From assembly GCF_006861775.1 (NCBI RefSeq), contig NZ_VDGG01000001.1, forward strand, positions 124,001-188,000: a stretch of DNA of 64,000 bases, in the 5' to 3' direction. The translations under genes were made by a program, and so were the position numbers. Shown here one piece after another: positions 9,574 through 63,202 of this stretch (its first letter is position 1; each line of letters starts with the position of its first letter). Under the pieces are notes generated by a model. That model saw only the letters and a program-made list of their open reading frames with translations. It made no database searches and had not been told where the DNA came from. Origin of the DNA: Psychrobacillus soli (GTDB lineage Bacteria; Bacillota; Bacilli; Bacillales_A; Planococcaceae).

Positions 9574-10350
9574 TTAATTGAGTACTTTAAGTTTCACCTT
9601 TTTGACTCCCCATTCCATCGCACTATCGTAAGAAGGAATGAATACATCGATTTTATGTCCTTTAATAGCCCCACCTGTATCACCGGCAATTGCCTCTCCA
9701 TAACCTTCCACCCATACTTTTGTGCCAAGTGGAATAATTTTTGGATCTACGGCAATCACTTTTTGATTTGGATTGGAACGTAAGTCAATTCCATACGCTG
9801 TCGTCCCGGAACATCCTGTACAATATGCAGTATAAGCGGTTGCTGTTACTGTTAATTCATTCGCTACTTGTGCTTCTACCACTTCTACTTTTTCTTCCTT
9901 CACCACCGGTTCTTCAATCGGTGGCGATGTTACAATTGGGGTGGATACGGCCGCCACCTTCCTATCTGGCTTCTGATGTACGGTCTCTGCTTCCACACTA
10001 CCAGCGCTCACAATCAATTCATCACCAGGATGTATAATATCTCCCTTTAAATCATTCCACTCAATCAACGACTCTAATGGAATATTATGTTTCAAAGCAA
10101 TTCGAAACAAATTATCCCCGTCCATGACCTTATAGCCTTTAGGCTCTTCCACTAGTTCCACTGGTGGATAATTGACTAATCCCAAATCTAAAGCATATTG
10201 GAAAGGCAATTCATCTTCTTCCGGAAAGCTATAGGAAGCATCGAAAACGCCTCCACTTGTGCCTATGCCTATAGGAAGATCCGCGGCTTGTGTTACTGTG
10301 TTCGTTGAGAATGCTATTAGCACAATGAACAAAAATGTTCTAAACTTCAA
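9574..10350 (-). CDS. secreted LysM and 3D-domain cell-wall protein (YocH/YuiC-like)
   Basis: This 258-residue exported protein probably acts on peptidoglycan. An N-terminal signal peptide (MKFRTFLFIVLIAFSTNTVTQAA) is followed by one LysM repeat at about 69-113 (YKVMDGDNLFRIALKHNI). A Val/Glu/Pro-rich linker follows at about 120-160, and a C-terminal 3D domain at about 165-258 contains AVDPKIIPLGTKVWVEGYG, AGDTGGAIKGHKIDVF and a final Asp in PSYDSA. 3D domains resemble lytic transglycosylase MltA/RpfB folds. A CTGC/SGTTAYG segment precedes the 3D motif as in YocH-type proteins. Single gene; the promoter must lie in the region to its right, near the repeat array. Confidence 0.9.
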   Translation of the reverse strand: MKFRTFLFIVLIAFSTNTVTQAADLPIGIGTSGGVFDASYSFPEEDELPFQYALDLGLVNYPPVELVEEPKGYKVMDGDNLFRIALKHNIPLESLIEWNDLKGDIIHPGDELIVSAGSVEAETVHQKPDRKVAAVSTPIVTSPPIEEPVVKEEKVEVVEAQVANELTVTATAYTAYCTGCSGTTAYGIDLRSNPNQKVIAVDPKIIPLGTKVWVEGYGEAIAGDTGGAIKGHKIDVFIPSYDSAMEWGVKKVKLKVLN

Positions 10351-10556: not shown

Positions 10557-11213
10557 GCAACCAGTTTACTTCTAAGAGCAACCAGTTCAAGGAGATAAGC
10601 AACCAAATTAACCGATAGAGCAACTAGTTTATACGTGAAAGCAACCAGTTCTCATGGTATAAAGTAAACTCTTCCTGATATAGCTCCTCGAAGGAATGAG
10701 GTGGAATTATTTTCTTTTATTAGTTACAAAATGGCGATGGGCGACCAATTCACTCATGAGGGCAACCAGTTCAAGGAGATAAGCAACCAAATTAACCATG
10801 GGAGCAACTAGTTCCCTAGCGAAAGCAACCAGTTCTCATAGTATAAATTAAACTCTTCCTGATATAGCTCCTCGAAGGTGCGAGGTGGAATTATTTTCTT
10901 TTATTAGTTACAAAATGGCGATGGGCGACCAATTCACTCATGAGGGCAACCAGTTCAAGGAGATAAGCAACCAAATTAACCATGGGAGCAACTAGTTCCC
11001 TAGCGAAAGCAACCAGTTCTCATAGTATAAATTAAACTCTTCCTGATATAGCTCCTCGAAGGTGCGAGGTGGAATTATTTTCTTTTATTAGTTACAAAAT
11101 GGCGATGGGCGACCAATTCACTCATGAGGGCAACCAGTTCAAGGAGATAAGCAACCAAATTAAGCACGAGAGCAACTAGTTAACTCACGAGAGCAACCAA
11201 TCCACTCACAAAA
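10557..11213. repeat. nested tandem repeat: 20 units of 21 bp in four blocks of five, with three 79-bp spacers
   Basis: Units start at 10557, 10578, 10599, 10620 and 10641; then 10741 to 10825; 10925 to 11009; and 11109 to 11193, each 21 bp apart within a block. Each unit begins with GCAACCAGTT or a close variant, followed by 11 variable bases. Blocks are separated by 79-bp spacers at 10662-10740, 10846-10924 and 11030-11108. The second and third spacers are identical by eye, and the first differs at about six bases. The overall period is 184 bp. Stops occur in the frames I checked and no long ORF spans the region, so it does not look coding. Outer blocks have drifted more than inner ones. 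Function unknown. Confidence 0.95.
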
Positions 11214-11217
11214 CAAA

Positions 11218-11237
11218 AGAGCTGCCAAAGCAGCCCT
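11218..11237 (-). terminator. terminator of the catabolic operon
   Basis: The 8-bp stem AGGGCTGC/GCAGCTCT has one G-U pair and a TTT loop, followed on the minus strand by TTTTGTTTTG. It lies directly after the thiolase stop. Confidence 0.8.
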
Positions 11238-11240
11238 CAC

Positions 11241-12434
11241 TCAAACTTGCATATTCTCAATGATTGTTGCAATTCCCATACCGCCCGCAATACATAGCGT
11301 CACCGCACCATATTTCTTACCAGTACGCTCTAGTTCATGCACTAACTTCGTCAACAAAATTGCACCAGTAGCACCAATCGGATGCCCCATTGCAATAGCA
11401 CCGCCATTTGGATTCACCTGACTAAACTTAAGACCTAACTCATTCACACATGCAACTGCTTGCGATGCGAATGCTTCGTTCAATTCTACTACATCTAGAT
11501 CTGCTATCGACAAGTTAGTTTGCTTCAATGCTTTTTGCATCGCATAAACAGGACCCATTCCCATCAATTCAGGTGCACAACCTGCAGAAGCTTGAGCGAT
11601 AATTCTCGCTTTTGGTTTGTAACCGCGTTTCAATGCCTCGGCTTCGGACATTACGAGTAATGCTGCTGCTCCATCATTACGACCACTCGCATTTCCCGCG
11701 GTTACCGTGCCGCCTTCTTTGAACACTGGCTTAAGTGTTGCTAGCTTTTCCAAAGTTGTTTCTCTTGGATGTTCATCGACTTTAAATTCTACGATACCTT
11801 TACGAGTTTTCACTGGATAAGGGGCAATCTCTTTTTCAAAATAGCCTTTTTCAATCGCATTTTTTGTTTTTTCCTGACTACTTAATGCGAATTCATCTTG
11901 TGCTTCTCTTGAAATCCCATACTTTTCTGCAACATTTTCTGCGGTGATTCCCATGTTTAAGTCGCCATAAATTTCTCTTGGCTGTGAGCCTGGTTGGCTT
12001 GCAGTATTTGGATCTTTCAGCGAAACATCCCCAGATTTTGTACCAAACCGCACACTATTCACATAGTACGGAGCAGTACTCATCGACTCTGCTCCCCCAG
12101 CAATGATAATATCACTAAGTCCCGTTTGAATTTGTTGCATTGCAGAATTTACCGCTTGTACACCTGATCCACATTGTCTGTGAATGGTATATCCCGGAAT
12201 ATCTACAGGTAGTCCAGCTCGAAGCATCGTAACTCTCGCTAAGTTGGATACATCGGCACTTTGTTTTGCTTGCCCTAAAATGACTTCCTCGACAGCAGTT
12301 TTATCGAGATTCGTACGACGTATTAATTCTTCTATTACGTGTGACCCGAGAAAATCTACTGTTTCATTGCCAATGCTACCACCAAGTTTTCCTATTGCTG
12401 TACGAACTGCGTCTACGATTACTACATTTTTCAT
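11241..12434 (-). CDS. pcaF: thiolase, probable beta-ketoadipyl-CoA thiolase
   Basis: This 397-residue thiolase cleaves 3-oxoacyl-CoA with CoA. In this operon the expected reaction is 3-oxoadipyl-CoA to succinyl-CoA plus acetyl-CoA, the last step of catechol degradation. The nucleophile Cys88 sits in RQCGSGVQAV, the His in GHPIGATGA (about 351), and the second Cys in CIAGGMG (about 381). Length and motifs match acetyl-CoA acetyltransferases, so an acetoacetyl-CoA thiolase is the alternative. Pathway assignment rests on its position as last gene after the muconate cycloisomerase gene and the CoA-transferase pair. Confidence 0.88.
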   Translation of the reverse strand: MKNVVIVDAVRTAIGKLGGSIGNETVDFLGSHVIEELIRRTNLDKTAVEEVILGQAKQSADVSNLARVTMLRAGLPVDIPGYTIHRQCGSGVQAVNSAMQQIQTGLSDIIIAGGAESMSTAPYYVNSVRFGTKSGDVSLKDPNTASQPGSQPREIYGDLNMGITAENVAEKYGISREAQDEFALSSQEKTKNAIEKGYFEKEIAPYPVKTRKGIVEFKVDEHPRETTLEKLATLKPVFKEGGTVTAGNASGRNDGAAALLVMSEAEALKRGYKPKARIIAQASAGCAPELMGMGPVYAMQKALKQTNLSIADLDVVELNEAFASQAVACVNELGLKFSQVNPNGGAIAMGHPIGATGAILLTKLVHELERTGKKYGAVTLCIAGGMGIATIIENMQV

Positions 12435-61013: not shown

Positions 61014-61115
61014 CATTTGGTTGCGTGTATATCCCAATTAGTCTTCTTTACTCATTAATAGGTAATTAAAAACACAACTTACCGTTTCCCTCTGTAAGTG
61101 ACCACATGTTTTGTG

Positions 61116-62743: not shown

Positions 62744-63202
62744 TTGAAAGTATCATTAAATATAGATAGTGATTTTAAAGAAACGAGAGTGATGATTGAA
62801 ACACCGGAATTAGACGGTCCTGTACAGGAAATTTTGGATTTTATCAAAGGTCGTGAAACGGAATTCCTCGTAGGAAAAAATGGGGAAATGCAGCATATTT
62901 TAAAACCGGATGACATTCACTATTTCCACACCGAGAAAGAGGCAGTTATCGCCGTAACGTCTACCGGTTCTTACAAATTAAAAGAGAAATTATATGAATT
63001 GGAAGAAATCCTTCCTTCGAATAAATTTATCCGACTCTCCAAATCGGTTATTGCCAATTTGCATGAATTGAGCCGTTTTGAAGCATCATTTAACGGCACA
63101 CTCTGTGTGTATTTTAAATCAGGTGCAAAGGAATACGTCTCTCGAACTTACGTGAATGCGATAAAAGAAGCTTTAAAAATGAACAGGAGGAAAAGCGAAT
63201 GA
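62744..63202 (+). CDS. LytTR-domain DNA-binding protein
   Basis: A 152-residue regulator without a receiver domain. The LytTR domain spans about 50-150: PDDIHYFHTEKEAVIAVTSTGSYKL, LEEILPSNKFIRLSKSVIANLHEL and NGTLCVYFKSGAKEYVSRTYVNAIKEAL. An N-terminal 50 residues of unknown fold precede it. Start at TTG 62744 with GAGGGGTG upstream. Such proteins bind 9-bp direct repeats, and one lies upstream of the exporter promoter. Confidence 0.9.
   Translation: MKVSLNIDSDFKETRVMIETPELDGPVQEILDFIKGRETEFLVGKNGEMQHILKPDDIHYFHTEKEAVIAVTSTGSYKLKEKLYELEEILPSNKFIRLSKSVIANLHELSRFEASFNGTLCVYFKSGAKEYVSRTYVNAIKEALKMNRRKSE

Follow-up and report, generated by a model that had tools for sequence, protein, structure and literature searches.

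Several described bacterial systems share part of the architecture reported here. Iterons are direct repeats of about 20–22 bp, phased with the helix and bound by an oligomerising protein; they sit at a replication origin with the Rep gene, and partition sites, like iterons, are confined to one or a few positions on a replicon. The sites of LytTR regulators (AgrA, ComE, PlnC) consist of two direct repeats, each about 9 bp long and separated by 12–13 bp, giving a 21–22-bp step on one face of the DNA, and are located in promoters. REP and BIME sequences are dispersed, mostly at the 3′ ends of genes, and their units are palindromic. Catalogues of bacterial interspersed repeats usually sort them by sequence, and a class in which geometry is the constant element would tend to be split or missed. 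Among the titles listed in a literature search of open-licence papers, none has the architecture described below; an earlier description is possible.

By habit, the nearest described kind is the STAR element of staphylococci (PMC3532100). The STAR box, T(G/A/T)TGTTG(G/T)GGCCC(C/A), is 14 bp long and of one type, and the spacers at the locus described there measure 40–44 bp, for a step of 54–58 bp. STAR elements and the present arrays are both intergenic and dispersed, combine a short conserved box with a variable spacer and a start signature, expand and contract locally, occupy different places in different species, and have no known function. The arrays have neither the STAR box nor the STAR spacing; their step is 21 bp, with about 6 free bp between boxes, blocks of about five units, and a large variety of box types.

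The locus lies in Psychrobacillus soli, in a window of 64,000 nucleotides, meaning the whole stretch of DNA that was analysed. At window positions 10557–11213, 20 units form four blocks of five (10557–10661, 10741–10845, 10925–11029, and 11109–11213), all on the plus strand, where the unit reads GCAACC, and every step within a block is exactly 21 bp. Read from the sequence, the block period is 184 bp and the spacer 79 bp. The spacer at 10662–10740, to which no strand is assigned, has near-identical copies at 10846–10924 and 11030–11108, and TRF reports a repeat at 10578–11199 with a period of 184, 3.4 copies, 95% matches, and a score of 1093. The figures of a first-pass annotation for units, blocks, steps, period, and spacers are exact, and its proposal that whole blocks were duplicated is borne out: the 184-bp blocks are nearly identical and are a later local duplication of whole blocks. 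The window genome (G000) is a draft of 101 contigs, two of which (C5 and C84) start inside such arrays, so the exact number of blocks in the window could be an assembly effect. With the first bases of both contigs within arrays, short-read assembly may break there and leave arrays under-counted.

Within this regular frame the letters vary. The cores are GCAACCAGTT, GCGACCAATT, GCAACCAAAT, GCAACTAGTT, GCAACCAATT-like, and GCAACCAATC, in an order that is nearly constant across blocks, so several variants occur besides GCAACCAGTT. A start signature, AAAATGGCGATGG, lies just 5′ of block 2 (10728–10740, plus strand), recurs before blocks 3 and 4, and resembles AAATGGCTTAG, which precedes many arrays. 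The claim that the copies in a block share one face of the helix holds; 184 bp divided by 10.5 is 17.5 turns, so adjacent blocks face opposite sides, and helical phase is confined to single blocks.

The array sits between two minus-strand genes, a LysM/3D-domain-like gene (9574–10350, ORF of 258 aa) and a thiolase-like gene (11241–12434, ORF of 397 aa), each with relatives in 19 of 19 genomes of the genus. All gene names in this work were given by recognition, without a family search, to ORFs from a home-made gene caller. Behind the thiolase-like gene, a terminator-like hairpin with a T-run was seen by eye on the minus strand at 11210–11234. It touches block 4, whose last linker continues into the A-run that forms the T-run of the minus strand. 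Elsewhere in the window, a two-unit relic (AAGACTAATT, GCAACCAAAT) lies on the minus strand at 61015–61045, immediately before a terminator-like hairpin.

Arrays of the same kind are spread over the genome. A two-box pattern with any gap of 0–30 bp has 148 matches in G000 (78 forward and 70 reverse) and none in the reversed control over the whole genome. The annotation likened the array to iterons or partition sites. Phased direct repeats of about 19–22 bp are indeed present, but 148 unit pairs dispersed over a chromosome-sized draft, and a window array placed between thiolase-like and 3D-like genes, do not sustain that likeness. Among 41 genomes, nine match the GCAACC pattern: eight of the 19 in the genus and one of another genus, where the only pair is spaced differently. 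In stretches chosen for containing matches, exact box pairs separated by less than 41 bp fall 48 times at 21 bp and seven times at 20 bp in G000, 93 times at 21 bp and once at 20 bp in G013, with no other distance in either genome; in G006, seven are at 21 bp, five at 20 bp, and four at 34, 38 and 40 bp.

The box spans about 14–15 bp, GARA followed by GCAACCAAWT, and is succeeded by about six free positions near 0 bits (84 and 123 distinct units). Units were selected on the ten GCAACCAAWT positions and not on GARA or the linker, so independent evidence comes only from GARA and the free linker. Across 130 blocks, five units are commonest (60 blocks), followed by six (27) and seven (15), the last two counts being inflated by loose scoring of block extension. 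The 528 steps in these blocks, for which only 20, 21, and 22 bp were admitted, divide into 471 at 21, 44 at 20, and 13 at 22 bp. A five-unit block is about 105 bp long, and within a block all boxes lie on one helix face. Of 109 blocks with at least four units, 53 have the motif AYGGC no more than 25 bp ahead of their first unit, versus 4 of 109 random places.

The orthologous site was compared through short pieces from six relatives. G006 carries two blocks with a spacer related to the 79-bp spacer of the window, and in G013 a five-unit block precedes the same 3D-like gene. Eroded array ends are found in G011 and G016, in the latter alongside another sequence, and the pieces from G017 and G015 hold no array at this site. 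The annotation regarded many arrays at constant position in related genomes as support for a function; at this one locus, two other species keep the array, two keep remnants, and two have none. With arrays or remnants at the corresponding place in G006, G011, G016, and G013, the window site is inherited. Between G000 and G013, much of the sequence separating the array from the 3D-like gene is well conserved, and 41 of 50 box letters are identical versus 18 of 55 linker letters. No other single observation speaks as clearly for constraint on box and spacing as this contrast, which comes from one locus.

Very different words share the step of 21 bp. A sequence-blind detector called any 8- or 9-mer that recurs three times at a constant lag of 14–60, with at most one mismatch between neighbours; the detector and its thresholds, like the box patterns, were picked after the first arrays were known. 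Applied to 48 unchosen stretches at fixed coordinates in 11 genomes of the genus (194 kb outside ORFs of at least 110 aa), it returned 29 matches at lag 21, a few of them AT-rich and possibly due to chance, eight at lag 42, and 12 over the other 45 lags; merged by locus, these become 17, seven, and 12. Twenty-six stretches outside the genus gave four matches at lag 21, two at 42, and three at other lags, and none at lag 21 came from the nine that belong to two other families. Markov simulations of 1.19 Mb, run with the 9-mer version and dissimilar linkers, yielded none at lag 21 and six at other lags, and 200 kb of E. coli K-12 yielded one at lag 19 but none at 21. The boxes met include TTTAGTTGGAA, TTACTTGCTC, TTATGCTCGGATA, CTCTCTCGTATA, ATTGTCGTAATC, AATTTGCGTTA, AATCGGTCGGTT, and AATGTTGCGC. 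The repeat class is set by its geometry, one box every two turns, usually repeated about five times, and the box sequence varies by array and species. Two large 21-bp arrays were also met: one in G011 (L121:17979–18812), amplified, with a TTTAGGAGCGGAT box and blocks of about 82 bp, and one in G017 (L148:2980–4141), with a TTATGCTCGGATA box, right behind a terminator-like site.

Individual words extend this picture beyond the genus. Of 261 family genomes, 17 have pairs of TTAGTTGGA with any gap of 0–30, among them 45 pairs in G000, which thus carries both GCAACC and TTAGTTGGA arrays, and 31 in G003. By hand count, 128 of the 136 matches listed are at step 21, two at 20, and six at others; among these listed matches, G071, G072, G164, and G201 show other steps only, which leaves 13 genomes, two of them outside the genus. 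Pairs of TTACTTGC occur in eight of the 19 genomes of the genus, including 218 in G009, 79 in G004, 42 in G007, and 41 in G008, as well as two in G010 that are both at other steps; the reversed control gave two in G002 and one in G015. TTRSTTGS, repeated three times at two successive 21-bp steps, is present in 47 of 261 family genomes, representing eight of 19 genera and 14 of the 19 genomes of the genus. Its reversed controls are non-zero in eight genomes, with at most three matches per genome, and some of its matches resemble coding sequence or simple tandem repeats (G056, G063).

The arrays keep to gene ends. At least one neighbouring gene ends towards the array at 65 of 69 GCAACC loci, and divergent gene pairs flank four of 69 versus 121 of 554 gaps of at least 150 bp; over all boxes, seven of 89 loci are divergent places. 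Arrays therefore avoid divergent promoters. REP and BIME sequences are similar in being dispersed mostly at gene 3′ ends, but the boxes here are direct repeats with weak folding (z −1.95 to 0.22) rather than palindromes. Array direction relative to genes is weakly biased: the hairpin-side gene points at the array at 44 of 69 GCAACC loci and the other-side gene at 40 of 69, and over all boxes, 58 of 89 loci have the gene upstream in the T-rich direction. The first idea of a strict one-way orientation behind terminators was dropped on these counts. Relative to replication, 36 of 50 loci in G004 and G008 carry TTACTTGC in the sense of the lagging strand, a hand count from coarse GC skew that omits two loci without an assigned arm and is non-independent where loci are shared; TTAGTTGG arrays in G003 lean the opposite way.

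With a probability that comes close to even, the arrays are cis-acting, helically phased, putative protein-binding platforms in intergenic space beside gene ends. Each block would present about five boxes of 14–15 bp on one helix face, one per two turns, with about 6 bp free between them. Most likely, a putative oligomeric DNA-binding protein, or else a group of related proteins whose specificity drifts, would sit on the block as a row of equivalent subunits. The probable role would be at the boundaries of transcription units, as insulation, a roadblock to read-through, or local chromosome structure, and titration may be another. We infer binding, oligomeric state, and role from the arrangement of the DNA, and the boundary job more weakly than the rest. 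The annotation's leaning towards a protein-binding array over coding DNA gains support, since spacing and box are kept where linkers are not, one orthologous site keeps both, and many different boxes have the same 21-bp period. A wider version of this proposal is doubtful: that throughout Psychrobacillus and its relatives such platforms at gene ends keep a fixed geometry while the word drifts (TTGGTTGC, TTACTTGC, TTAGTTGG) along with co-evolving proteins, and would insulate transcription units or organise the chromosome.

Several observations count against binding platforms. Constant position is seen at one locus, the genes that precede arrays of one box type differ from species to species, and orientation is inconsistent. 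Different boxes within one genome would need several proteins. Among known systems, LytTR sites fit the geometry best, with a 21–22-bp step between direct repeats; the arrays differ in having about five boxes, in lying away from divergent promoters, and in boxes that depart from the LytTR consensus. LytTR genes do not discriminate, as two to six matches occur in each of the 19 genomes of the genus whatever the box dialect. One LytTR-domain match lies in the window at 62894–63175 (plus strand), and another (G000:C16:47224–47508) is about 55 bp from an array, which could be chance. If a protein reads the arrays, they would represent a widespread new DNA-binding system in which changes of specificity are recorded in many related genomes, usable for studying the co-evolution of protein and site; if the arrays are mobile instead, they would be an unusual kind of element end. 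On either reading, the question of why 21 bp is testable by changing one spacing.

The main rival, which is rather unlikely, holds that the arrays belong to non-autonomous mobile elements, as their recognition ends or as their bodies, that the boxes are kept for a transposase or recombinase, and that most surviving copies lie behind genes, since insertion at other places is harmful. The variety of boxes would then reflect elements with different recombinases, as it would otherwise reflect a protein family with drifting specificity. Mobility would account for the strong differences in array number between species, the similar flanks around many G000 copies, and the 18 and 6 copies in G013 that align across long shared flanks. 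These G013 flanks keep the idea alive, but their extended homology includes another known repeat type, and part of the dispersal may be by such neighbours; in an unsystematic look at the alignments of the G013 copies, no terminal inverted repeats, target duplications, or empty sites were noticed. Arrays of TTAGTTGGA follow an argS-like gene in G000, whereas in G003 the gene ahead is enolase-like and in G010 kinase-like, and one linker is identical among the three, as expected of a mobile sequence. The other linkers mostly differ, however, and most same-box arrays have boxes in common and linkers not. Together with the inheritance of the window site, the differing linkers favour a protein family over mobile elements.

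That the boxes are words for DNA uptake or self-recognition is improbable. Such words are also short, intergenic, present in many copies, and divided into dialects between species, but several unrelated words coexist in G000 with no single dominant one, and helical phasing and five-unit blocks are not known as features of such words. The Neisseriaceae provide the described case of uptake-sequence dialects (PMC3630211). Uptake sequences are not known to form phased arrays.

It is quite improbable that the array builds a structured RNA or an RNA-binding element, although transcription is conceivable for some arrays that have a stop codon on one side and a terminator on the other (L096, and L222 next to the end of an enolase-like gene). 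Of five folded pieces, the one with z −1.95 includes the terminator-like hairpin, and the other four range from −1.58 to 0.22. Rfam 15, searched with E up to 1 at 12 loci including the one that spans the window array (L001), gave no match on the arrays. A strict 21-bp step shared by unrelated words is also more natural for double-stranded DNA.

A neutral minisatellite growing by slippage, the alternative left standing by the annotation, is now very unlikely. It would suit the near-identical 184-bp blocks of the window, further amplified blocks in G013 (L082, L083, L101), and the similar linkers of some 21-bp arrays (L082:223–760; G063). Slippage predicts equal divergence at all unit positions, but both the unit profile and the orthologous pair show box and linker to be unequal, with box and spacing held while linkers vary. 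One period also dominates the 47 tested lags and unrelated boxes, and the relation persists across species. The long array at L082:223–760 in G013, with TTTGGGGAACTC units and rather similar linkers, is nearer to a true minisatellite than the others.

Coding repeats, for which 21 bp would be seven codons, have virtually no chance as a general account: some family matches may be coding (G056 and the 39-bp pairs of G071 and G072), and two viral-contig arrays described below are inside long ORFs, but coding is ruled out for the window array, where no listed ORF of at least 60 aa overlaps 10557–11213. The 184-bp period, which is not a multiple of three, and the 20-bp steps of other arrays break a frame, and the sequence-blind scan had already excluded ORFs of at least 110 aa.

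Three scans of viral contigs returned 4, 7, and at least 120 stretches. Among the 4, the 7, and 80 listed of the at least 120, eight contigs have an array of at least three units; two of the eight were checked for ORFs (L235, L241), and both arrays are inside long ORFs. Carriage of the arrays by phages is not supported by the two contigs checked. Arrays at L019 and L034 lie near the ends of ribosomal RNA operons, as marked by 5S and 23S matches, and matches to Bacillaceae-1 RNA (RF01690) are found close to GCAACC arrays at L006:1760–1826 and L031:929–995.
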